Notes: generated by a model not told the origin, from the sequence alone. Positions 14,661 through 52,110 are shown, counted from the stretch's first letter. The stretch: 64,000 nt of DNA from an uncultured Pelagibacteraceae bacterium (GCA_902514745.1 CABXRX010000002.1:1-64000), one strand, 5' to 3'. A program made the numbers and translations.

Positions 14661-14974
14661 CCTGGTTATCAATCATCGTTGCAGGCATATTAACTTATTT
14701 TACTAGAATGACTATGATTGCTTTAATTGATAGAGAAATGCTTGGAGATAAAATTAAATCTGTATTAGAATATGTTCCTTCAGCAGTATTTCCTGCAATA
14801 ATATTTCCTGCAATTTTTATCAATGATTATGGATCATTTGTTGAAATAAATGACCCTAAAATTTTTGGAGCTATAGTTGCAGTTTTTGTTGGATATTTTT
14901 CAAAAAATATTATTGCAACTATTTTATCTGGATTAATTTCTTATTGGTTTTTAATTTTTGTTATAACTAATTAG
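14657..14974 (+). CDS. azlD: Branched-chain amino acid exporter small subunit, AzlD family
   Basis: A 105-aa partner of AzlC with about four membrane segments and the family motif ILTYFTRMTMIALI near the N-terminus, followed by LEYVPSAVFPAIIFPAIF. Coupled to azlC by a 4-nt overlap. Its 3' end overlaps the end of the convergent MBL-fold gene by 8 nt, so no terminator is visible between the two transcripts. Confidence 0.88.
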   Translation: MTWLSIIVAGILTYFTRMTMIALIDREMLGDKIKSVLEYVPSAVFPAIIFPAIFINDYGSFVEINDPKIFGAIVAVFVGYFSKNIIATILSGLISYWFLIFVITN

Positions 14975-15650
14975 AACCTAATTTAATATTTCTACTAACG
15001 TTAGACTCTATCATTTTAGGTTTAGATAAATTTAAGTTCGACATAATATCTACATATTCATCTATGCTGTTTACCTGTAATCTAGGATTAAACTTTTTTT
15101 CAGTTCCAATCGTACTTACTTTTTTCCCATTATAATCATGACCTGGATAAACAAAAGTTTCTTCAGGTAATTTCAAAATTTTATTGAATAAAGAATTGTA
15201 AGCAGATTTTGAACACCCATTTTGAAAATCTGTTCTACCAGTTCCATTTATTAGAAGAGTATCACCTGTAAAAAGATGATTATTCATTAAAAAACTATAG
15301 CTATCTGAAGTGTGTCCGGGAGTATATAACGCTCTAATTTTTAGATTATCTACATCTATATACTCGTCATCTTTTACTTTTATTTCTACCAACTCCGCAG
15401 GCGTATGAGCACCCATTATTGTTGAGCATTTTGTAATATTTTTAAGTTCAGAAGCTCCTGTTACGTGATCAGCATGAATGTGAGTATCAATTACTTTTAC
15501 TAATTTTAAATCTAATTCCTCAAGTAAACTAATATATTCGTTTACATTTTCTATAACTGGATCAATGATCAGCGCCTCTCTACTTTTTCCTGAAGAAATT
15601 AAATAAGTATAAGTTGAAGATTTAGTATCAAATAATTGCTTAAAAATCAT
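14967..15650 (-). CDS. MBL-fold persulfide dioxygenase-like protein (ETHE1 type)
   Basis: Metallo-beta-lactamase fold hydrolase/dioxygenase. The metal motif DTHIHADHVTG lies near residue 55, with later ligands in TPGHTSDSY and YPGHDYNG. GTGRTDFQNGC is diagnostic of the ETHE1/persulfide dioxygenase branch rather than glyoxalase II. ETHE1 enzymes oxidise glutathione persulfide to sulfite with O2 using one non-haem iron. The 227-aa length fits, with no rhodanese fusion; a separate rhodanese lies at 30.2 kb. Sulfite made here could feed the AprMBA system. It diverges from the cupredoxin gene. Confidence 0.8.
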   Translation of the reverse strand: MIFKQLFDTKSSTYTYLISSGKSREALIIDPVIENVNEYISLLEELDLKLVKVIDTHIHADHVTGASELKNITKCSTIMGAHTPAELVEIKVKDDEYIDVDNLKIRALYTPGHTSDSYSFLMNNHLFTGDTLLINGTGRTDFQNGCSKSAYNSLFNKILKLPEETFVYPGHDYNGKKVSTIGTEKKFNPRLQVNSIDEYVDIMSNLNLSKPKMIESNVSRNIKLGSN

Positions 15651-33695: not shown

Positions 33696-33848
33696 CTAAT
33701 TATTTTCTTTTTTTTTATTTTTTTTATCTTCCTCAACAAGAAAATTAATTTTATTTTTTAAATAGTTTTTTACAAATACGAAAACTAATAAGCCAAAAAT
33801 TGAAACTGAAACAATTATAATAAGTATAATTCTTAATTGTTCATCCAT
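33696..33848 (-). CDS. Small single-pass membrane protein downstream of cysQ (50 aa)
   Basis: Too short for the ORF track. Its ATG overlaps the cysQ stop by 1 nt (TAATG), so translation is likely coupled. The 50-aa sequence starts MDEQLRIILIIIVSVSIFG, has one membrane helix (about residues 7-26) and ends in a highly charged tail (VEEDKKNKKKENN). No family recognised. Coupling to cysQ and a clean hydrophobic-then-charged layout support coding. Confidence 0.6.
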   Translation of the reverse strand: MDEQLRIILIIIVSVSIFGLLVFVFVKNYLKNKINFLVEEDKKNKKKENN

Positions 33849-34612
33849 TATAAAATATTTTTACTTTTTAAAATTAAACTTGGATTCTTTAAATCTTTTT
33901 TCCCATATAATATCTCACTGCCATCAAAATCTGTAACTGTTCCACCTGCTGAGACTAATATTGCATGACCTGCAGCTATATCCCATTCATAAGCTCTTGG
34001 TTCAGCAACATAACCGTCATATTCACCGGCTGCCACCACACAAAACTTAAGTGAACTTTTCATTCTAACATTTTCAACCACACCAATGTCTTGATATATT
34101 TTTTGGATTTCTGGTTTGATTTTATTAGAATAAGAAATAAATTTTATTGGTCTATTAATTTTAGTGTTTTTACTACTTAAGTTAATAGTTTTTCCATCAC
34201 TTAACTCAAAAGCATTTCCTTCTCCATAAGAATAAAACATTCTTTTTTTTGCGGGAGCATTAATTAATCCAGCAACGGGTTTGTTATTGATAATTAATCC
34301 GGCATTTATCGTGAATTCTTCTAAGTTATTTATATAATCATAAGTTCCATCTATAGGATCAACTAACCAAAAATCTTTTAATTGATTATTATCTTTATTA
34401 TCAGATGTTTCTTCTGATACTATTGGGATATTAGGGGTTATTTCTGAAATTTTTTTAGTAATAAATTTATTTACTTCCAAGTCTCCATTACTTACAGGTG
34501 TGTTGTCTGATTTGATTTCTTTTGTTAATCCTTTATCTCTAAGATCAAGAGAAAGATCTCCCGCTGATATAAAAGCGTCTATCAAATTTTCTACAATTAA
34601 TTTTATATCCAT
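33848..34612 (-). CDS. cysQ: 3'(2'),5'-bisphosphate nucleotidase CysQ-like (inositol monophosphatase family)
   Basis: Mg-dependent phosphatase likely to remove the 3'-phosphate of PAP. Metal-site motifs are PIVSEETSD at about residue 60, WLVDPIDGTYDYINN near 80 and EPRAYEWDIAAGHAIL near 210. The 254-aa length fits CysQ better than SuhB. Flanked by a DUF3553 gene upstream (7 nt gap) and a small membrane protein overlapping its stop. It may matter for adenylated sulfur metabolism, but APS from AprBA is not its substrate. Confidence 0.85.
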   Translation of the reverse strand: MDIKLIVENLIDAFISAGDLSLDLRDKGLTKEIKSDNTPVSNGDLEVNKFITKKISEITPNIPIVSEETSDNKDNNQLKDFWLVDPIDGTYDYINNLEEFTINAGLIINNKPVAGLINAPAKKRMFYSYGEGNAFELSDGKTINLSSKNTKINRPIKFISYSNKIKPEIQKIYQDIGVVENVRMKSSLKFCVVAAGEYDGYVAEPRAYEWDIAAGHAILVSAGGTVTDFDGSEILYGKKDLKNPSLILKSKNIL

Positions 34613-40974: not shown

Positions 40975-41370
40975 ATGAAAAATCCCAATAATCCATGTTT
41001 ATTTTGTAACTCTAAAATTAGTGGTATAGCTCATGAAAATGAACTTGCTTATGCTAGTTATGATTCTTATCCAGTATCTGAAAATCATTGTTTAATAATT
41101 CCTAAAAGACATGTTGCCGACTATTTTGATTTATCTAATGAAGAATTAATTGCATGTAACGATTTAATTAAGATAATAAAAAAAGAAGTTTTAGATAAAG
41201 ACAAAAGTGTTAAAGCATTTAACATTGGAAGTAATGCTGGTATAGAAGCTGGTCAATCAATAATGCACTGTCATATACATCTGATTCCTCGAAGAAAAGA
41301 TGATGTTGAAAATCCACAAGGAGGTGTGCGGTCTGTAATACCAAAAAAACAACATTACAAACGAAAATAA
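40975..41370 (+). CDS. HIT family nucleotide-binding protein
   Basis: Histidine-triad hydrolase or transferase acting on nucleotide phosphoramidates or dinucleotides. The triad is IMHCHIHLIPRRKDD near residue 98, with CLFCNSKI (possible zinc Cys pair) near the start and NHCLIIPKRHVADYFDL. The track starts at GTG 40951 inside pabC; ATG 40975 lies just past the pabC stop and gives MKNPNNPCLFC, a typical N-terminus (131 aa). Probably co-transcribed with the pab genes. Confidence 0.9.
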   Translation: MKNPNNPCLFCNSKISGIAHENELAYASYDSYPVSENHCLIIPKRHVADYFDLSNEELIACNDLIKIIKKEVLDKDKSVKAFNIGSNAGIEAGQSIMHCHIHLIPRRKDDVENPQGGVRSVIPKKQHYKRK

Positions 41371-41483: not shown

Positions 41484-42278
41484 ATGTTAGAAACAAATCC
41501 ATTTTTAATTTTGTCAGAATCTGTTCCTGTAGCAGTTATGCAAGGATTTATAATTGCAATGGTTGTATTGATTGCATTTGGTACAATTATTCAAATGATA
41601 CATCATAAGAATATTACTTATTTTTTTAACAATGCAAAAAAAGCAAAACTTCAAGCAACTAGAGAAATAGGTGCTGGAGAAAAAGCTTCGATAATTGCAA
41701 AAACTGCAGTTGTCGACATTGGAACTACCTCTGAACTTGGATTTGGTAAAAGAAGACTTTCACATGTACTGGGCATGTATGGTACCATCATATTTTGGAT
41801 TTCATCTGCAATGCTTGTATTCTGTTATACTGGTGCAGATAAAACAACATCTTCTACATGGTCAATATTATGGCATGTCGGAGCAATACTAACTTGTATA
41901 GGTGGATATTGGTTTTGGTTTTTTTTAAGAGTTGATGTTTCTGCTGAGGCTCATCCTTGGTATAGAATTATTAAAGCAGATTTATTTGTTCTAGCATTAT
42001 TAGCGTGCTCGACATTTGGTTTAGCATGGTCATACACACAGTTTAATGGACAAATAGGTCTTTCATTTTTATTTTTAGCACTTTTTGTAGTTTCAAATTT
42101 AGTTTTATTTGGTGGTGTATATTGGTCTAAATTTGCTCATATGTTCTATAAACCAGGCGCAGCTATACAAAAAAATCTGGCTGAAGCTGATGGTTCTAGA
42201 GATAATTTACCTCCACCAGCTGAAGCACCTGAGCAATTTGGCCTAGGTATAAAAAGAGAAGAGCCAAAACATTATTAA
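41484..42278 (+). CDS. aprM: AprM-like membrane anchor of adenylylsulfate reductase
   Basis: Integral membrane protein expected to link AprBA to the quinone pool. The 264-aa protein has about six hydrophobic segments and scattered histidines (MIHHKNITYFF, RRLSHVLGMYG, LWHVGAILT, AEAHPWYRII) that could ligate haem b as in narG-gamma-like subunits. The C-terminus is soluble and Pro/Glu-rich. A good ribosome site (AAAGGGTAAA) precedes it. Position directly before aprB and aprA is the main argument; AprM is the known alternative anchor where QmoABC is absent. Confidence 0.85.
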   Translation: MLETNPFLILSESVPVAVMQGFIIAMVVLIAFGTIIQMIHHKNITYFFNNAKKAKLQATREIGAGEKASIIAKTAVVDIGTTSELGFGKRRLSHVLGMYGTIIFWISSAMLVFCYTGADKTTSSTWSILWHVGAILTCIGGYWFWFFLRVDVSAEAHPWYRIIKADLFVLALLACSTFGLAWSYTQFNGQIGLSFLFLALFVVSNLVLFGGVYWSKFAHMFYKPGAAIQKNLAEADGSRDNLPPPAEAPEQFGLGIKREEPKHY

Positions 42279-42314
42279 TATGTTAACTAACTAAAAAAGG
42301 AAAAAAATTAAATT

Positions 42315-42785
42315 ATGTCAACTTTTGTATATATGACTAGATGTGATGGCTGCGGTCATTGTGTAGATATTTGCCCTTCAGATATAATGCATATTGATGA
42401 AAATATCAGACGAGCTAAAAATATTGAGCCTAATTTTTGTTGGGAATGTTATTCATGTGTAAAAGCTTGCCCAAATCATGCTATTGATGTTAGAGGATAT
42501 GCTGACTTTGCTCCAATGGGGCACAGCGTCAGAGTAAGACGTGAAGAAGAAAAAGGCACAATTTCATGGAAAATAAAATTTAGAAATGGAACTACAAAAG
42601 ACTTTGTTTCGCCAATTACAACAAAGCCATGGGGAAAATTTATTCCTAAACTTGCTGATGGTGAAAAAGTAAATCAAGGAGAGCTTAATTCTCAGAGATT
42701 ATATACAGAGCCTGAGGGACTTAATATAGATGGAGAACTACCAGCTGTTCCTAAAGATTCGTTTAAAAAAGGAGTTTACTACTAA
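42315..42785 (+). CDS. aprB: Adenylylsulfate reductase beta subunit
   Basis: Iron-sulfur electron-transfer subunit. TRCDGCGHCVDICPSD near residue 8 and FCWECYSCVKACPNHAIDVRG near 45 give eight cysteines for two [4Fe-4S] clusters. The rest forms the beta-rich tail that embraces AprA (SWKIKFRNGTTKDF). At 156 aa it matches known AprB. It sits 36 nt after aprM and its stop overlaps the aprA ATG by 1 nt. In sulfur oxidisers this complex runs from sulfite plus AMP to APS. Confidence 0.95.
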   Translation: MSTFVYMTRCDGCGHCVDICPSDIMHIDENIRRAKNIEPNFCWECYSCVKACPNHAIDVRGYADFAPMGHSVRVRREEEKGTISWKIKFRNGTTKDFVSPITTKPWGKFIPKLADGEKVNQGELNSQRLYTEPEGLNIDGELPAVPKDSFKKGVYY

Positions 42786-44644
42786 TGGCTAAACATAAAA
42801 CACACTACGAGGATTGTGATGTTCTGGTTGTGGGTGGTGGTATGGCTGGTACTGGAGCTACTTTTGAAGCTAGGCACTGGGGGCGAGATAAGAAAATTAT
42901 TTGTGTTGAGAAAGCTAATATTGACAGAAGTGGAGCAGTTGCCCAAGGACTTTATGCAATCAATTGTTATATGGGTATGCAATGGGGTGAAAACCAACCT
43001 GAAGATCATGTTAGATATGCAAGGAACGATCTTATGGGAATGGTTAGAGAAGATTTAGGTTACGATATGGCTCGACACGTAGACTCAACAGTTCATATGT
43101 TTGATGAATGGGGTCTTCCAATGATGAAAAATGAAGAAACCGGAAGATACTTAAGAGAGGGAAAATGGCAAATAATGATTCATGGTGAAAGCTATAAACC
43201 TATCGTTGCGGAGGCAGCAAAGAAATCTGCTGATAAAATTTATAATAGAATAATGATTACTCACCTCTTAATGGACGAAAATAAAGAAAATAGAGTAGGT
43301 GGAGCTGTCGGATTTAATATGAGAACAGGCGACTTCCATGTATTTAGAGCTAAAGCTGTAATCGTTGCAGCCGGTGGGGCATCTCACATATTTAAACCCA
43401 GAGCTGTAGGTGAAGGAATGGGAAGAACTTGGTATGCTCCATGGAGTAATGGGTCAGCTTATGCATTGCCAATCGCTGCTGGAGCAAAAATGACTCAAAT
43501 GGAAAATAGAATTGTATTGTGTAGGTTTAAAGATGGATATGGACCAGTTGGAGCATATTTTTTACATTTAAAAACATATACACAAAATGCAAATGGTGAA
43601 AACTATGAAAAGAAATGGTATGAACAGACAAAAGAGTTAGTTGGAGAATATATCGATCATCATCCAACACCTACCTGTTTAAGAAATCATGCTTTTATCC
43701 AAGAAACTATGGCTGGTGGTGGACCAATTCACATGGTTACAACTGAAGCTTTCCAAGACCCACATTTAGAAACTGTTGGCTGGGAAAATTTCTTAGGTAT
43801 GACTGTTGGTCAAGCGGTTGTTTGGGCATCTCAGAACATTGATCCAAAATATACTAACCCAGAGTTAACTACATCAGAACCATATGTTATGGGCTCTCAT
43901 GCTACTTGTTCTGGTGCTTGGGTAAGTGGTCCAGAAGATTTATCTCCACCAGAATATTTCTGGGGATACAATAGAATGCTTACAATTGATGGGTTATTTG
44001 GAGCTGGTGATACAGTAGGTGGAAGTGCCCATAAATTTTCATCAGGTTCGTTTACAGAAGGTAGATTAGCCGCAAAAGCAGCAGTTAAATACATTGAGGA
44101 TAAAAAAGCTGAGGATTTAAAAGTAACTGATAAACAATGTGAAGATTTTAAAACTAAAGTTTATAAACCATTAGAAACATATACTGTTGCTCAAAATGAA
44201 ATTACTGGAGGAACCGTATCTCCTAGTTACATCTCTCCAATTCAAGGATTGCAGCGTTTACAGAGAATAATGGACGAATATGTTGGTGGAATTGCAACAA
44301 ATTATATGACTAATGCCAATATGTTAAAAAGAGGCTTAGAGCTATTAGCTTGGTTGGAGGAAGATCTTGAAAATGTTGGGGCTGAAGATTACCACCAACT
44401 AATGAGAGCATGGGAGCTAAAACACAGAGCTTTAACTTCTCAGTGCGTAACAGAGCACACTATGTTTAGAGAGGAAACTAGGTGGCCAGGCTACTATTAT
44501 AGAGGCGATCATATGAAACTTGATGATGACAACTGGCACTGTCTAACAGTTTCTAGAAGAGATCCTAAAACAGGTAAATTTAGTATGGAGAAAGTTCCTG
44601 TCTACCATATAGTGGATGAGAACGAGAAGAAAAAAGCTTCTTAA
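42785..44644 (+). CDS. aprA: Adenylylsulfate reductase alpha subunit
   Basis: FAD subunit that interconverts APS and sulfite plus AMP. FAD motif VLVVGGGMAGTGATFEAR lies near residue 14. Diagnostic AprA blocks are NHAFIQETMAGGGPIHM, GSHATCSGAWVSGPEDL (the catalytic His region) and GLFGAGDTVGGSAHKFSSGS. The length is 619 aa. The operon is aprM-aprB-aprA plus a small downstream gene. With suyAB and xsc nearby releasing sulfite, the oxidative direction is most sensible. ATP sulfurylase, needed to finish to sulfate, is not in the window. Confidence 0.96.
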   Translation: MAKHKTHYEDCDVLVVGGGMAGTGATFEARHWGRDKKIICVEKANIDRSGAVAQGLYAINCYMGMQWGENQPEDHVRYARNDLMGMVREDLGYDMARHVDSTVHMFDEWGLPMMKNEETGRYLREGKWQIMIHGESYKPIVAEAAKKSADKIYNRIMITHLLMDENKENRVGGAVGFNMRTGDFHVFRAKAVIVAAGGASHIFKPRAVGEGMGRTWYAPWSNGSAYALPIAAGAKMTQMENRIVLCRFKDGYGPVGAYFLHLKTYTQNANGENYEKKWYEQTKELVGEYIDHHPTPTCLRNHAFIQETMAGGGPIHMVTTEAFQDPHLETVGWENFLGMTVGQAVVWASQNIDPKYTNPELTTSEPYVMGSHATCSGAWVSGPEDLSPPEYFWGYNRMLTIDGLFGAGDTVGGSAHKFSSGSFTEGRLAAKAAVKYIEDKKAEDLKVTDKQCEDFKTKVYKPLETYTVAQNEITGGTVSPSYISPIQGLQRLQRIMDEYVGGIATNYMTNANMLKRGLELLAWLEEDLENVGAEDYHQLMRAWELKHRALTSQCVTEHTMFREETRWPGYYYRGDHMKLDDDNWHCLTVSRRDPKTGKFSMEKVPVYHIVDENEKKKAS

Positions 44645-44663
44645 TAAGTTTTAGGTAAACAGC

Positions 44664-45014
44664 ATGGATATATTGTCAAAAACAGACGATGAAGTTTATC
44701 AGATAGCTAAACCCATTTGGGATAATTTAGTTAAATCATCAAATCTAAGAGATTATGGTGGTTTTACTAAAGATTTTTCAACACAAATGTTGTTTGGAGC
44801 TAATGAAGTAGAACTTGGTAAGCAGTGGGCCAATAATAAGATAATCACAAATTTAGAGGAAACATTTGAACCATTTGGCTGTCTCAGAAGAGGTGTTCAC
44901 ATCACTGTCTTAATTAAACAAACAAATAAAGAAATTTCGGGAGAATTTCTTGGTCGGCTAGTTTTAGGTGAAGAAGACGGTGTAGTGAAAGTATTTGGAG
45001 CTACAATATATTAA
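44664..45014 (+). CDS. Uncharacterised 116-aa protein in the apr operon
   Basis: Starts 20 nt after aprA on the same strand. Family not recognised. The predicted layout is two or three N-terminal helices (DEVYQIAKPIWDNLVKSSNL) followed by strands (VHITVLIKQTN, SGEFLGRLVLGEED, VVKVFGATIY), which is reminiscent of small NTF2/cystatin-like folds. There is one cysteine (FGCLRRGVH). It has no signal peptide or membrane segment. It may be an assembly, activity-tuning or sulfite-relay factor for AprBA; this is inference from position. Confidence 0.75.
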   Translation: MDILSKTDDEVYQIAKPIWDNLVKSSNLRDYGGFTKDFSTQMLFGANEVELGKQWANNKIITNLEETFEPFGCLRRGVHITVLIKQTNKEISGEFLGRLVLGEEDGVVKVFGATIY

Positions 45015-45083
45015 GAAAAATAAATTATCTAAGTTTGAAATAATTGTTTGACAAATATTTCTGCGGGTGTATTGACGCAGTTA

Positions 45084-45218
45084 ATGCAACTTTCAAACAT
45101 AAAAATCATAAATAAAATTATAAATTTAAAAGCTGTTTTAATAAAAACAGGTTTATTTATGAGCCTTGCTGCTTATTGGGGTGTTATTTTAGTTGGAACT
45201 TTTATCACATTTAACTAA
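45084..45218 (+). CDS. 44-aa single-pass membrane peptide before tauE
   Basis: Not in the ORF track. ATG 45084 gives MQLSNIKIINKIINLKAVLI, continuing KTGLFMSLAAYWGVILVGTF and ending ITFN. The N-terminal half is basic and the C-terminal 22 residues form one membrane helix, so it would be inserted with the N-terminus inside. It fills most of the 233-bp gap between the apr operon and the TauE/SafE gene. No ribosome site is obvious and no family is recognised. An internal ATG at 45159 with CAGG upstream would leave only 19 aa. Confidence 0.45.
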   Translation: MQLSNIKIINKIINLKAVLIKTGLFMSLAAYWGVILVGTFITFN

Positions 45219-45247
45219 GTTGTTTTTACACAACTGTTAATTTTATT

Positions 45248-46327
45248 ATGGAAGTATTTTTACCTATAGCTCAAGTATTTGTTAACCCTATAGAAATACT
45301 TTTTTTAAGTGCAATAGTTGGAGTTTTATCAGGATTATTTGGAGTTGGTGGTGGTTTTTTAATGACACCTTTTTTAATTTTTTTAGGTGTTCCCCCTGCC
45401 TATGCAGTTGCAAATGAAGCAAATAATATTCTTGCAACATCTGTTTCAGGATCAACAACTCATTATTTAAAAAATACTTTAGATTACAAAATGGGTTTAA
45501 TGATTGTAATTGGTGGTACTATTGGAACATCAATTGGAATATACATATTTACATATTTCAAAGGCATTGGAAAAATAGATACAGTTATCTCTTTGGCTTA
45601 CATGTATATTTTAGCAATTATAGGTACATTAATGTTAGTTGAAAGCCTAGGTGAAATTGATAAAGCAAAAAAAAATCTTTTAATTAAGAAAAAATTACAT
45701 GTTCATTATTGGATTCATGGTCTTCCATTTAGAATGCGTTTTCCAAAGTCAAAACTATATGAGAGTGTTTTTACACCAATTATAATTGGTCTATTGGTTG
45801 GATTTATTGCTGCCATAATGGGAATAGGTGGAGCTTTTATTTTAGTACCAGCGATGATTTATATAATTAAGATGCCAACAAAATTAGTTCCTGGAACTTC
45901 TTTGTTTGTAACTATTTTTGTAAGTGTGATAGTTACTTTTTTACACTCATTTAACTATGGTTCTATAGATTTAATGTTGGTCTTTATGTTGGTAATAGGA
46001 TCTATCGTAGGTGTTCAAATCGGACAAAAGATTGGGGAAAAAATTGATAGTTCTGGTCTTAGAGCTTTGCTAGCTATTTTACTCTTAATTGTTGGTATAG
46101 CAATTGCTTATGATAGTTTCTTTGTGGAAGAAATTCAAAAAGAAACAACAACAGTTTTAAATACAGACTTAAATTTTTTCTCATTATTCATAAAACAATT
46201 TTCTGAAGAGATGCCGTTTTTCTATGGATTATTTTCAATTATGTTTGCTGTATTTTTGGGTGTTGCTGCAGCATTTATAAGACGTTTCATTTCAAATTTT
46301 AAAAAAAAAATCTTAATAAAATCTTAA
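45248..46327 (+). CDS. tauE: TauE/SafE family sulfite/anion exporter
   Basis: Membrane protein of the TauE/SafE family, whose members export sulfite, sulfoacetate or related anions. Two internally similar halves are visible: GVLSGLFGVGGGFLMTPFLI near residue 25 and GLLVGFIAAIMGIGGAFILVPA near 185, with about eight hydrophobic segments. A cytoplasmic loop at 140-175 is rich in Lys and His. Length is 359 aa. Its 3' end overlaps the convergent yeiH by 4 nt. With sulfonate lyases on both sides, sulfite export is the likely role. Confidence 0.88.
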   Translation: MEVFLPIAQVFVNPIEILFLSAIVGVLSGLFGVGGGFLMTPFLIFLGVPPAYAVANEANNILATSVSGSTTHYLKNTLDYKMGLMIVIGGTIGTSIGIYIFTYFKGIGKIDTVISLAYMYILAIIGTLMLVESLGEIDKAKKNLLIKKKLHVHYWIHGLPFRMRFPKSKLYESVFTPIIIGLLVGFIAAIMGIGGAFILVPAMIYIIKMPTKLVPGTSLFVTIFVSVIVTFLHSFNYGSIDLMLVFMLVIGSIVGVQIGQKIGEKIDSSGLRALLAILLLIVGIAIAYDSFFVEEIQKETTTVLNTDLNFFSLFIKQFSEEMPFFYGLFSIMFAVFLGVAAAFIRRFISNFKKKILIKS

Positions 46328-47421
46328 ATAAACTTATTTAGGGTTTCGATATATATTAAACTTATAATTCCCACTGTTACTGCGGCAATCAAACCAACAA
46401 TAAAAGGTTTGTAGCCCATTGATTTTAATTCACTTAAATTGATGGATATTCCAACCGCAGCCATAGCCATAGTTAAAAATACAGTTGCTAGTGTTTTTAA
46501 GTATTCAATTAAATTAATCCAAATTTCATAATTACTACTACCAATTGAAAAAAACTGATCGCCCAGATTTCTCACAATTATCATTCCAATAAAACCTAAT
46601 ACAAAATAAGGAAATATATTTAAGATTGAGTAGTTATGACCTTTTAATTCCCCTCTGTTGTATAAAAACGCAAATAAAGGGATTAAAATTACTAAAAAAG
46701 TGTTTCTGATAAGCTTTGTTACTGTTGCAACATTTAATGTTTCAGGGTTATTAAATTGTTGATCATAAATTAATCCAGCAGCTGCTACTTGAGAAGTCTC
46801 ATGAATAGAAGTTCCTAAAAATAGCCCAACATTTAAGGCTTCATTATTAAAATACCATTCAGCAAAATAAGGATAAATTAACATCGCAATTACACCAAAC
46901 AATGTAATATTAGCAATCGCATATGCTACTTCAGATTTTTTTGCATTTATAACTGGTGCAGTTGCTACAATTGCTGTTGCACCACACACACTTGTTCCGA
47001 TAGCGATCAAATAAGACATTTTGGAGGAAATAGGAACTTTCTTAATAAGTAATTTAACCAAAATTAAAACACCCAAAATACAAATTATAATCAATGGTAT
47101 TGCAATAGATCCAAATTTTATGAAATCAGCAAAACTTAATCTAATACCTAAAAATATTATTCCTAATTTTAAAATATATTGTTGAGTAAAATCTAATCCA
47201 ATCATCATCCCTGGTCTCGGAGTAAAAGCATTACCCATTAATATCCCGAGCAGGATTGCAATTAAGACAGTTGAAATAGGACTTTTTGGAGTACCAAAAA
47301 TTTCAATAGCTAATACATTATTTATTCCTTGAGAAAATAAACAAAATACTAATGCTAAAGCAACACCAGGAAAAATTGATTTAAGGTATTGAAGTTTAAT
47401 TAGCACAGAAATCTTATGCAC
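46324..47421 (-). CDS. YeiH family putative sulfate/sulfite exporter
   Basis: A 365-aa protein with about ten membrane segments. I recognise the YeiH (UPF0324) blocks [20 protein letters not shown]-like [53 protein letters not shown] and [19 protein letters not shown]. The family is annotated as sulfate exporters and often sits with sulfonate genes. Its start overlaps suyB by 8 nt, making suyA-suyB-yeiH a probable operon in which it would relieve the sulfite or sulfate released by SuyAB. Confidence 0.85.
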
Positions 47422-48580
47422 TTCTGTAGAGTTTAGTCATCACAAATTCTCTGTGACCTAAAGCTTCTGCACAAGTTAATCTTCCGTTTGCTACCCTTAA
47501 AGTTGTTTTTATTAGTTCATCTCCTGCTTCAGATAAATTCATTTCCCTTGAAAGAATTTTAGAAACATCACAGTCTATATGTTCACCCATTCCTTTAACA
47601 GTTAAAGGATTTGCTGTTAATTTAACAACAGGTTCTATTGGATTACCAATAATATTACCTTGGCCAGTTGGAAATAAATGAATGTTAAACCCTGCTGCTG
47701 CTTGAAGTGTAACACATTCTGCTGCAGCTGAAGATGTATCCATAAAGTATAAACCTTTACCTTTTGTTGGCTCCTCTGCAGGTTCTAAAACATCTATAAA
47801 TTTACAATTTCCAATTTTCTGAAAATTTCCAAAAGCTTTTTCTTCAATTGTGGTTAACCCACCTGCAATATTTCCTGCAGTTGGTTGACTTTCTGATAGA
47901 TCATCCGTTGCTTCTTTTAATATAAAATCATTATAACTATTCCAAGTTTTAATAAATTTATCAGAAGCTTCTTTAGTTGCTCCTCTTGTAGCACAAACTT
48001 GTTCAGCACCTGTTAATTCAGATGTTTCTCCAAAACATAAATGAACACCCATTGGTTCTAATTTTTCCATAAGATTACCAACTGTTGGGTTAGCAGCTAG
48101 TCCAGATGTAGTATCTGACTCGCCACATTTTACTGAAATCCAAAGATCACTTATTGGACACTCTTCTCTTTGTTTTTCAGAAGCCCACATTACAAACTCC
48201 TGAGCTTTTTTAGAGGCTTTCATTGTTGTGCCTATATCTCCAGTTCTTTCTATATGAAATCCCTCGACTGGTTTTCCTGTTTTAGCAATACCATCTACAA
48301 TTTTTTTAGTCCATTTTGGCTCAATACCTATAACGATTACTGCTGCAACATTGGGATTGCAGCCAGTTCCAATCATAGTTCGAAAATGAAGCTCTAAATC
48401 AGCTCCAAATTGAAGCCTACCATAAGAATGAGGTAGAGCTATCGTTCCTTTGATATTGTTTGCTACAGCTTCAGCACATGCATTTGAAATGTCATCTACA
48501 GGAAGAATAATTACATGATTTCTTGTACCAGCTCTTCCATTTTCTCTTTTATAACCTAAAAAACTTTTTGGAAATTCCAT
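47414..48580 (-). CDS. suyB: (2R)-sulfolactate sulfo-lyase beta subunit
   Basis: Large subunit of the enzyme that cleaves sulfolactate to pyruvate and sulfite. It belongs to the UxaA/altronate-dehydratase superfamily: [51 protein letters not shown], and [20 protein letters not shown] near residue 305. The separate 94-aa SAF-domain partner plus 388-aa core is the SuyAB arrangement; altronate hydrolase is usually a single longer chain. Context with yeiH, aprMBA, tauE and xsc strengthens the sulfonate assignment. Confidence 0.85.
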
Positions 48581-48584
48581 ATTA

Positions 48585-48869
48585 TTACCACTTCTTTGTT
48601 TTTACATTGTGAACATGCACGTGTTCACCTTTTTTAATAGATTTGACCACTTTACCTATATCATGACCATATTTAAGAATTGTGTCACCTTCATTAAGGT
48701 CAATCATTGCAATTTTATGCCCTAAGGGGATTTCATCTACTGATTGAATATTTGTTGAGCTGTCATCTTCCATTATCCAGCAAGCACAGTCTTGTTTTGG
48801 AGTTATTTTTTCAATAACAACAACTCCCACGTTATCTTTTTTATCGTGAATTATTATATCTGTTGCCAT
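48585..48869 (-). CDS. suyA: (2R)-sulfolactate sulfo-lyase alpha subunit
   Basis: A 94-aa SAF-domain protein partnering SuyB, 4 nt upstream of it. Family signs are [20 protein letters not shown], then [20 protein letters not shown] near the C-terminus; the GEHVHVHN ending is typical of the UxaA N-domain/SuyA family, where His and Cys bind iron. The N-terminal segment has a CACWIMEDD insertion. It is divergent from xsc across a 112-bp region that must hold both promoters. Confidence 0.85.
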
Positions 48870-48882
48870 ATCGTGTCGATTT

Positions 48883-48934
48883 GTTTGTTTGAAATTTGTA
48901 AATTCTTATATATTAATCGCAAAAATTAACAAAC
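48883..48934. promoter_or_regulatory. Spaced inverted repeat in the suyA-xsc divergent region
   Basis: GTTTGTT (48883-48889) and AACAAAC (48928-48934) are exact complements separated by 38 bp, inside the 112-bp region shared by suyA and xsc. Such paired half-sites could allow one regulator to control both directions. The motifs are simple and AT-rich, so chance is possible. No adjacent regulator gene exists. Confidence 0.35.
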
Positions 48935-48981
48935 GAATTTTAATAAATATTAAATTTACACTTTAGAGAGGTTCTAGTTTT

Positions 48982-50766
48982 ATGACAAAAATGACGACAG
49001 AAGAAGCTTTTGTAAAAGTTTTACAAATGCACGGAATTGAACATGCATTTGGAATTATTGGATCAGCATTTATGCCGATTTCAGATATTTTTCCTGATGC
49101 TGGAATTACTTTTTGGGATGTAGCTCATGAAACTAATGGTGGTTTAATTGCAGATGGATACACAAGAGCAACTGGTAAAATGTCAATGGTAATTGCACAA
49201 AATGGACCGGGTATAACTGGATTAGTTACGCCAATTAAAACTGCATATTGGAATCACACTCCCCTTTTATTAGTAACACCTCAAGCTGCAAATAAAACCA
49301 TGGGTCAAGGTGGTTTTCAAGAAGTTGAGCAAATGAACTTATTTAAAGATATGGTTTGTTATCAAGAAGAAGTTAGAGATCCATCAAGAATGGCGGAAGT
49401 TTTAAATAGAGTAATTGAAAAAGCAATTAGGGGTTCAGCGCCAGCACAAATCAATGTACCTAGAGATTATTGGACTCAAGTTATTGATATCGATCTTCCT
49501 CCAATTGTAAGACTAGAAAGACAAGCAGGAGGTGTAGATGCGATTAAAAAAGCTGCTGACTTATTATCTGATGCAAAATTTCCTGTAATACTATCAGGAG
49601 CAGGAGTTGTTATTGGTGGTGCTATTGAAGATTGCAAAAAATTAGCTGAAAAATTAGATGCACCAGTTTGTTCTGGTTATCAACATAACGATAGCTTTCC
49701 AGGAAGTCATCCTTTAGCTGCTGGACCGTTAGGCTACAATGGCTCAAAAGCCGGAATGGAATTAATTCAAAAAGCGGATGTTGTTTTAGCCTTAGGAACA
49801 AGACTTAACCCTTTTTCAACATTACCAGGTTATGGAATGGATTATTGGCCAAAAGAAGCAAGTATTATTCAAGTTGATATGAATTCAGATCGAATAGGTT
49901 TAACAAAAAAAGTTACAGTAGGAATCTGTGGTGATGCTAAATTAGTTGCCCAACAAATTCTTGCTCAACTTTCACCAACAGCTGGTGACACTGATAGGCA
50001 AAAAAGAAAAGATATTATTCATCAAACTAAATCAGCTTGGTTACAAAAATTATCAAGTCTTGATCATGAAGATGATGATAAAGGTACAGTCTGGAATGAG
50101 GAAGCAAGAAAAAGAGACTCTGACAGAATGTCACCAAGACAAGCATGGAGAGCAATTCAAGCAGGAATGCCTGATGATGTAATTATTTCAAGTGATATTG
50201 GTAACAATTGTGCAATTGGAAATGCTTATCCAACTTTTGAAAAAGGAAGAAAATATTTAGCGCCAGGTTTATTTGGTCCTTGTGGTTATGGATTTCCCTC
50301 AATTTTAGGAGCAAAAATTGGATGTCCTGATACTCCAGTTATAGGTTTTGCTGGTGATGGAGCCTTTGGTATTAGTATGAATGAAATGAGCTCATGTGCA
50401 AGAGAAGAATGGCCAGCTATAGCAATGGTTATCTTTAGAAATTATCAATGGGGTGCTGAAAAAAGAAATACAACTCTTTGGTTCGATGACAATTTTGTTG
50501 GAACAGAATTAGATCCAGAATTAAGCTACGCTAAAGTTGCGGATGCTTGTGGATTAAAAGGTGTAACTGTTAGGACAATGGAAGAGACTACATCAGCAAT
50601 TAAGCAATCTTGTGAAGATCAAAAGAGAGGAATTACAACATTTATAGAAGTAATTCTAAATCAAGAACTTGGTGAACCATTTAGAAGAGATGCGATGAAG
50701 AAACCAGTAAAAGTTGCTGGGATTAACAAAGCAGATATGAAGAAACAACCTTCGTTAAACTCTTAA
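48982..50766 (+). CDS. xsc: Sulfoacetaldehyde acetyltransferase
   Basis: TPP enzyme converting sulfoacetaldehyde plus phosphate into acetyl phosphate and sulfite. The 594-aa chain has the Xsc-specific N-terminus (MTTEEAFVKVLQMHGIEHAF, then GIIGSAFMPISDIFPDAGI) and ANGP-like IAQNGPGITGLVTPIKTAYW. The TPP-binding segment is VIGFAGDGAFGISMNEMSSC, then FRNYQWGAEKRNTTLWF. An AGAGG ribosome site precedes ATG. The next gene, 39 nt on, is an FAD amine oxidase. Substrate could come from taurine or isethionate. Confidence 0.93.
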   Translation: MTKMTTEEAFVKVLQMHGIEHAFGIIGSAFMPISDIFPDAGITFWDVAHETNGGLIADGYTRATGKMSMVIAQNGPGITGLVTPIKTAYWNHTPLLLVTPQAANKTMGQGGFQEVEQMNLFKDMVCYQEEVRDPSRMAEVLNRVIEKAIRGSAPAQINVPRDYWTQVIDIDLPPIVRLERQAGGVDAIKKAADLLSDAKFPVILSGAGVVIGGAIEDCKKLAEKLDAPVCSGYQHNDSFPGSHPLAAGPLGYNGSKAGMELIQKADVVLALGTRLNPFSTLPGYGMDYWPKEASIIQVDMNSDRIGLTKKVTVGICGDAKLVAQQILAQLSPTAGDTDRQKRKDIIHQTKSAWLQKLSSLDHEDDDKGTVWNEEARKRDSDRMSPRQAWRAIQAGMPDDVIISSDIGNNCAIGNAYPTFEKGRKYLAPGLFGPCGYGFPSILGAKIGCPDTPVIGFAGDGAFGISMNEMSSCAREEWPAIAMVIFRNYQWGAEKRNTTLWFDDNFVGTELDPELSYAKVADACGLKGVTVRTMEETTSAIKQSCEDQKRGITTFIEVILNQELGEPFRRDAMKKPVKVAGINKADMKKQPSLNS

Positions 50767-50805: not shown

Positions 50806-52110
50806 ATGGAAGTGACTAACGATAATGCTTGTAGTTGGGTTAATGATTTAACACCAAGAACAAATGTTAAATCTATCCAGTCAAACGAAGATTGTGAATG
50901 GTTGATAATAGGTGCAGGATATACAGGGTTGTCTGCTGCGAGAAAATTAGCTGAGTTACATTATAATCAAAAAATAATATTAGTAGATGCCCAATTAGCA
51001 GGCGAGGGAGCAAGTAGCAGAAATTCAGGTTACTTAGTTGACACCACCTTAAATGACGGCTTCACTTCAAATAAAGAATTAGAAAATTATAGAAAAAAAT
51101 CTGCTATTTATAGTTTAGGAATAAAAATTGTAAAAAAATTTATTAACGAACATCAAGTAGATTGTGATTGGAATGAATGTGGTAAATTTTTTGCATCTTC
51201 AAAAGTAGAAGATGAAAAAATTTTACTAAATTTTTCCAGCACACTTTCTCAATTAGGTTTTGAACATAATTTATTGAAAAAAAAGGATTTATTTAAAAGA
51301 CTAGGTACAAATTTTTACAATATTGCTCTTCATACAAAAGGAGGAATTTTATTACATCCTGGTAAACTTGTCAGATCAATGATTGATGTGTTGCCTAGTA
51401 ATGTGTGTTTATATGAAAATTCATGTTTAATAAATTGGAATAAAAACAAAGATTTTATTTCATGTAATTTTAAAAATGGAAAAATAAATGCTAAGAAAAT
51501 TATCTTTGCTACTAATGGTTTTTTAAAATCTTTAGGGATTAAATCTAACTATAATTTTCCAATTACTTTAACTGCAAGTATGACAAGATCATTAACTGAT
51601 GAAGAATTTAAATCTATTGGAGAGCCAAAAGAATGGGGTGTGCTACCAGTAAGACCAATGGGTGCAACTATCAGAATGACTAAAGACAAAAGGATATTGG
51701 TTAGAAATACAGCCGAGATTCGTAATCCATTTAAAATGTCTAAATCAGACTTAAAGAAAAGATCTATTAATCAAAAAATTTCTATTAAAAAAAGATTTCC
51801 ACATCTGACTGATGATATCTTTCAATCGACATGGTCAGGAATTGTATCGAGGACAAGAAATAGTTCTCAAATATTTGAAAAAATTGATGATAATATTTTT
51901 GCTGCAGGCTGCTATAATGGTTCTGGTATAGGTGTAGGCACTTTATTTGGAGAACAAATTGCCATTAAAGCTAGTGATGAATATACAAAAGAAATTGAAA
52001 TAATTGAGGCAAGAAATAAACCAACAAGGTTGCCACCTCAACCCTTTCTAAATTTAGGTATTAAGGCAAGATTATTTTATGAGCGATTAAGAGCTAAATC
52101 GGAAATTTAA
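50806..52110 (+). CDS. FAD-dependent amine oxidoreductase (DAO fold) linked to xsc
   Basis: A 434-aa flavoprotein with WLIIGAGYTGLSAARKL near residue 33, AGEGASSRNSGYLVD near 70 and the C-terminal FAD segment FAAGCYNGSGIGVGTLFGEQ. It resembles PuuB-type amine oxidases. Being 39 nt downstream of xsc, it could deaminate taurine to sulfoacetaldehyde in the manner of the TauY subunit of taurine dehydrogenase. However, no TauX-like small subunit is visible, and the same fold oxidises many amines. The FAD oxidase call is firm and the taurine role is a hypothesis. Confidence 0.82.
   Translation: MEVTNDNACSWVNDLTPRTNVKSIQSNEDCEWLIIGAGYTGLSAARKLAELHYNQKIILVDAQLAGEGASSRNSGYLVDTTLNDGFTSNKELENYRKKSAIYSLGIKIVKKFINEHQVDCDWNECGKFFASSKVEDEKILLNFSSTLSQLGFEHNLLKKKDLFKRLGTNFYNIALHTKGGILLHPGKLVRSMIDVLPSNVCLYENSCLINWNKNKDFISCNFKNGKINAKKIIFATNGFLKSLGIKSNYNFPITLTASMTRSLTDEEFKSIGEPKEWGVLPVRPMGATIRMTKDKRILVRNTAEIRNPFKMSKSDLKKRSINQKISIKKRFPHLTDDIFQSTWSGIVSRTRNSSQIFEKIDDNIFAAGCYNGSGIGVGTLFGEQIAIKASDEYTKEIEIIEARNKPTRLPPQPFLNLGIKARLFYERLRAKSEI

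Follow-up and report, generated by a model that had tools for sequence, protein, structure and literature searches.

The window analysed here is a 64,000-nucleotide stretch of DNA from an uncultured Pelagibacteraceae bacterium (GCA_902514745.1 CABXRX010000002.1:1-64000). Between positions 41484 and 50766 it holds an island of sulfur genes that a sequence-only reading had listed as AprMBA, TauE, a YeiH-type protein, SuyBA and Xsc, and gene calls together with family profile matches bear this list out. The island opens on the plus strand with aprM (41484..42278), which has no family match and is recognized by its place before aprB, four hydrophobic segments in its product and conserved synteny. 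The beta and alpha subunits of APS reductase follow on the same strand as aprB (42315..42785; TIGR02060, 184 bits, cut-off 135.7) and aprA (42785..44644; TIGR02061, 991 bits, cut-off 642). A predicted sulfite exporter of the TauE/SafE family (45248..46327, plus strand; PF01925, 156 bits) then runs tail to tail into a putative sulfite/sulfate exporter of the YeiH/SuyZ type (46324..47421, minus strand; PF03601, 232 bits, over the cut-off), and the 4-nt overlap claimed for the two genes is found as shared bases 46324-46327. The YeiH-type protein misses the curated cut-off of TIGR00698 (160.7 bits versus 232.6). The minus strand also carries suyB (47414..48580) and suyA (48585..48869), assigned to the large and small subunits of (2R)-sulfolactate sulfo-lyase, and xsc, for a predicted sulfoacetaldehyde acetyltransferase, closes the island on the plus strand (48982..50766).

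Two linked genes were absent from the sequence-only reading. Directly upstream of aprM lies a gene for a HIT-family protein (40975..41370, plus strand; PF01230, 68 bits, cut-off 21.5), whose histidine triad HxHxH reads HCHIH. Directly 3' of aprA, the apr operon includes a gene for a 116-aa protein (44664..45014, plus strand) that is kept after aprA in both SAR11 families; the predicted model of its product (pLDDT 89) matches NTF2-like structures. Further genes of the window were noted in passing. A DAO-family FAD oxidoreductase gene (50806-52110) lies directly 3' of xsc and has the same place in several relatives, and a CysQ-like phosphatase gene (33848-34612; TIGR01331, 199 bits versus a cut-off of 228.8) is found about 7 kb from the island. 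An MBL-fold protein (14967-15650) resembles the hydroxyacylglutathione hydrolase and sulfur dioxygenase families, below their cut-offs, and is a possible further source of sulfite.

Among relatives of the host genus (g1), the gene order metC-MFS-pabBAC-HIT-aprM-aprB-aprA-116aa-TauE-(YeiH)-suyB-suyA-xsc recurs from locus to locus, which excludes a chance arrangement, and a complete genome of 1,308,759 bp contains the whole block. The YeiH-type gene varies: of the 27 loci covering its place, 11 carry it and all have TauE; a YeiH-type exporter also neighbours suyAB in Paracoccus and in strain SC52. Of the island, f2, which is a second family of the order, retains only aprM-aprB-aprA-116aa at the same place. 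In one g282 genome (G458, L249), aprMBA, suyAB and xsc are gone from the island's place, and the adenylyltransferase gene remains beside TauE.

SuyAB shares a Pfam family with altronate and galactarate dehydratases, and in public records it is often annotated as a UxaA family hydrolase or a D-galactarate dehydratase, the very identity that the sequence-only reading had named as fatal to its SuyAB claim. SuyB matches PF20629 (283 bits) and PF04295 (114 bits). When it was used in a protein search of plasmids, 13 listed records were 59.5-69.4% identical and the next were at 39% or less. The surroundings of this near group fit sulfolactate/DHPS metabolism: the Cupriavidus member lies beside annotated hpsN and hpsO; that of strain SC52 beside a hisD-like gene, oxidoreductases and a putative sulfate exporter; that of Methylobacterium beside TauE, an Ldh-family oxidoreductase and a sulfate exporter; and that of Paracoccus beside a tripartite transporter, dehydrogenases and a sulfate exporter. 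A tree that included UxaA and GarD of E. coli unites the SAR11 proteins and the SuyB proteins of sulfolactate/DHPS operons in a 100/100 clade away from these two outgroups, whose branches are long. The small subunit is encoded separately, by a 94-aa ORF directly before the large one, in the split layout of near relatives. Clade, identity gap and operon contexts led us to reject a dehydratase identity, which we regard as highly improbable; they support grouping SuyAB with sulfolactate sulfo-lyase, with a predicted activity on (2R)-sulfolactate. The Xsc assignment likewise held, at 963 bits against the TIGR03457 cut-off of 676. A phosphotransacetylase, which the sequence-only reading had advised seeking in the full genome, is represented by a PF01515 family gene in 60 of the 61 relatives, own genome included. 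Most of these matches fall in an ORF of about 760 aa, which we take for a malic enzyme fusion, and many genomes also have a separate ORF of about 300 aa.

In an alignment with 2fja, AprA keeps the active-site residues N74, W234, R265 and H398 from the list named in PMC2211403, with D361 replaced by N. AprB is without the charged loop after Cys-B13, a loop tied to the Qmo complex (PMC2211403), and aprM precedes aprBA, as it always precedes aprB in SAR11 loci; compared with PMC2211403, these features place the enzyme in lineage I. That AprM-type lineage is one of sulfur oxidisers, P. ubique included, and AprM is defined as the assumed link of AprBA to the membrane electron chain (PMC2211403). 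The catalytic site of AprBA is identical in reducers and oxidisers (PMC2211403), which lends some weight to a reductive use, in which AprBA would reduce APS to sulfite for assimilation; the APS might then be produced from sulfate by the kinase-adenylyltransferase pair described below. We consider such a use improbable, as the AprBA is of the AprM-type lineage I and is co-located with two sulfite-releasing enzymes and with sulfite exporters, and sulfate reduction pathways are incomplete in Pelagibacteraceae according to PMC12636525. Membership in lineage I, together with aprM, favours the oxidative direction, short of proof.

The sequence-only reading also expected energy from sulfite oxidation and advised a search for ATP sulfurylase. 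A PF01747 search, with the CysDN type outside its scope, found no ATP sulfurylase in the own genome (55% complete) and detected the enzyme in 1 of 61 relatives and in 10 of the 197 genomes of the order, leaving 187 without a match; the same search was positive in 5 of 14 control genomes. The energy claim therefore stands in part: AprMBA could pass electrons to the membrane, but with ATP sulfurylase mostly absent, APS is left without its canonical exit and the pathway without the known form of its ATP-yielding step. According to PMC10356861, most SAR11 are without ATP sulfurylase, and sulfate excretion has not been demonstrated, cultured SAR11 included. We rejected the idea that SAR11 usually dispose of APS through canonical sat, in view of the rarity of this gene and of the one SAR11 sat locus examined (G515, L247:10631-13945), where a cysC-sat pair and a sulfotransferase-like gene are inserted downstream of xsc. 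Such an insert looks suited to sulfation and not to the oxidation of sulfite, which hints that canonical sat, rare as it is in SAR11, has another purpose there. In two other alphaproteobacteria, sat lies directly 3' of aprMBA (L118; L119).

APS is a substrate of some HIT proteins (Fhit, Hint4, DcpS); our literature search for HIT activity on APS returned tumour-suppressor papers only. The HIT gene is linked to the island in three different arrangements. It immediately precedes aprM in 25 of the 27 host-genus loci that cover this place, and in two g282 genomes (L241, L243) it directly follows suyB. The third arrangement is that of G298, an unrelated alphaproteobacterium, with the order sat ... 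aprB-aprA-x-HIT-xsc-pta (L104). We rejected the view that HIT is a mere member of the pab operon because the g282 stretch, with HIT after suyB, contains no pab genes, and the view that it strictly replaces sat because G298 carries both. Two of the 27 genus loci and f2 have no HIT gene at the place before aprM, and the gene also turns up in unrelated contexts. We propose the island HIT protein as a candidate APS hydrolase/phosphorylase.

The other candidate for the APS step is a gene pair that consists of an APS-kinase-family protein (PF01583, 29-45 bits, cut-off 21.1) and an HxGH adenylyltransferase of 124-131 aa. The kinase-like protein stays below NCBIfam TIGR00455, with 22.6 of 138.7 bits. 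The 131-aa adenylyltransferase of relatives is not a member of PF01747 (12.3 bits versus a cut-off of 24.3), and its motif is GRWQP, as in the NMN type, and not of the QTRNP type. By sequence it is closest to NMN adenylyltransferases, and its predicted fold, poorly modelled at residues 93-106, matches NMN and phosphopantetheine adenylyltransferases first, with ATP sulfurylases lower in the list. It may nevertheless work like an ATP sulfurylase.

The place of the pair differs between lineages. In f2 its two genes are convergent and lie directly behind aprMBA-116aa. In g282 the adenylyltransferase gene is directly upstream of aprM in six loci (L239-L243, L250), and match positions in all ten aprA-bearing genomes are consistent with this arrangement. 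In the host genus the pair is unlinked to the island, and in two loci it lies near a gene that best matches DMSP demethylase (below cut-off); the own genome, 55% complete, yielded no match to it, and the close relative G024 has the adenylyltransferase. Three SAR11 genomes, in which no aprA exceeds the cut-off, carry the pair fused into one ORF of 255-281 aa (L244:8384-9229, L245:4784-5557, L246:6492-7259), once beside a sulfotransferase-family gene (L245). The pair is widespread, occurring in SAR11, SAR86, other marine alphaproteobacteria and, commonly, marine viral contigs (L151-L189, L192-L230, L254-L333). It follows cysQ (TIGR01331, 289 bits, over the cut-off) downstream of xsc in other marine alphaproteobacteria, and 7 of 31 SAR86 loci have a sulfotransferase gene before it.

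Counts of aprA and adenylyltransferase in f2 were 33 genomes with both, 2 with aprA only, none with adenylyltransferase only and 18 with neither, and in the other f1 genera 10, 0, 5 and 12, respectively; these figures are inflated, as they compare neighbouring genes in draft assemblies of related genomes. No such association exists in the host genus, where the genes are unlinked: the adenylyltransferase is present in 6 of 7 aprA-less genomes and absent from more than 10 nearly complete aprA-bearing genomes. The pair also occurs in 20 genomes of SAR86 and other alphaproteobacteria in which no aprA passes the cut-off, and its basic role is thus independent of AprBA. A literature search for adenylylsulfate kinase together with sulfotransferase in SAR11 found no papers. 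That the adenylyltransferase handles APS in SAR11 is possible, with doubt outweighing confidence. We are equally tentative about the fuller proposal, in which the pair would be a miniature ATP sulfurylase/PAPS synthase replacing Sat in a SAR11 sulfite-to-sulfate pathway and HIT would offer a second route.

We think it probable that SAR11 keep the island as a conserved module for using C2/C3 sulfonates and coping with the released sulfite, with APS passing to an enzyme other than Sat. From their family assignments, SuyAB would split (2R)-sulfolactate into pyruvate and sulfite, and Xsc would convert sulfoacetaldehyde and phosphate into acetyl phosphate and sulfite. Sulfite could leave the cell through TauE and, in some genomes, through the YeiH/SuyZ exporter. 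Alternatively, AprBA would join it to AMP to give APS, with the electrons passing through AprM to the membrane. Since most genomes have no ATP sulfurylase, APS is probably consumed by another enzyme, which may be HIT (releasing AMP or ADP and sulfate), the pair of relatives, or both. Several observations speak against this reading, namely the gaps in HIT occurrence and its coexistence with sat, and, for the pair, its presence without aprA, its NMN-like character and its lack of linkage in the host genus.

The same genes might instead serve detoxification alone: TauE and YeiH would export most of the sulfite, AprMBA would turn the rest into APS, and APS would be hydrolysed with no gain of ATP, so that only the electrons yield energy. 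The exporters within the island and the absence of sat from most genomes agree with this, a HIT hydrolase would return AMP to AprBA, and sulfite removal is the published view (PMC12636525). Electrons delivered to the membrane would still give energy, however, and the adenylyltransferase that flanks aprMBA in two lineages could conserve it, and we judge pure detoxification rather unlikely.

SAR11 are among the most abundant cells of the ocean, and sulfonates are a major currency passed from phytoplankton to bacteria. Having kept APS reductase while mostly lacking ATP sulfurylase, SAR11 present a puzzle as to whether sulfonate sulfur becomes sulfate and with what energy gain. With the linked genes for HIT, the kinase and the adenylyltransferase as candidates, this gap narrows to a few enzyme assays. 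Should the pair prove to form or cleave APS, the source of PAPS in SAR86 and marine phages might be explained as well.

The core gene content and its role in sulfite removal have been published. In the accessible text of PMC12636525 (2025), aprAB, suyAB and xsc are core or near-core in Pelagibacteraceae and sulfite removal by aprAB is proposed, which matches our case in genes, family and hypothesis; that portion of the paper is silent on the exporters, on HIT and the 116-aa gene, on the kinase-adenylyltransferase pair and on the island arrangement. Our analysis adds the HIT and 116-aa genes, the variability of YeiH, two other arrangements that include the adenylyltransferase and a sat-bearing counterpart in another alphaproteobacterium; it also offers HIT and the pair as two linked candidates for the APS step, with putative reactions. 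In the taurine-to-sulfate pathway of 'Ca. Taurinisymbion ianthellae', Xsc frees sulfite and AprAB oxidises it to APS, as proposed here, but that organism has Sat and Qmo, whereas the window has AprM and most SAR11 are without Sat (PMC10356861). The sulfolactate/DHPS operons of Paracoccus, Methylobacterium and Cupriavidus share with the window the suyA-suyB pair and, in several, a nearby YeiH-type or TauE exporter. They combine suyAB with hps genes or hydroxyacid dehydrogenases and a suyZ-type exporter; the window, in contrast, has aprMBA and xsc beside suyAB in place of dehydrogenases or a dedicated transporter. Like the window, the G298 island (L104) brings APS reductase, HIT and Xsc together in a single block. 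It differs in an AprBA that is about 50% identical, in sat and a qmoA-like gene, in pta next to xsc and in showing no suyAB, and this block of qmoA-like gene, sat, aprBA, HIT, xsc and pta is built independently.
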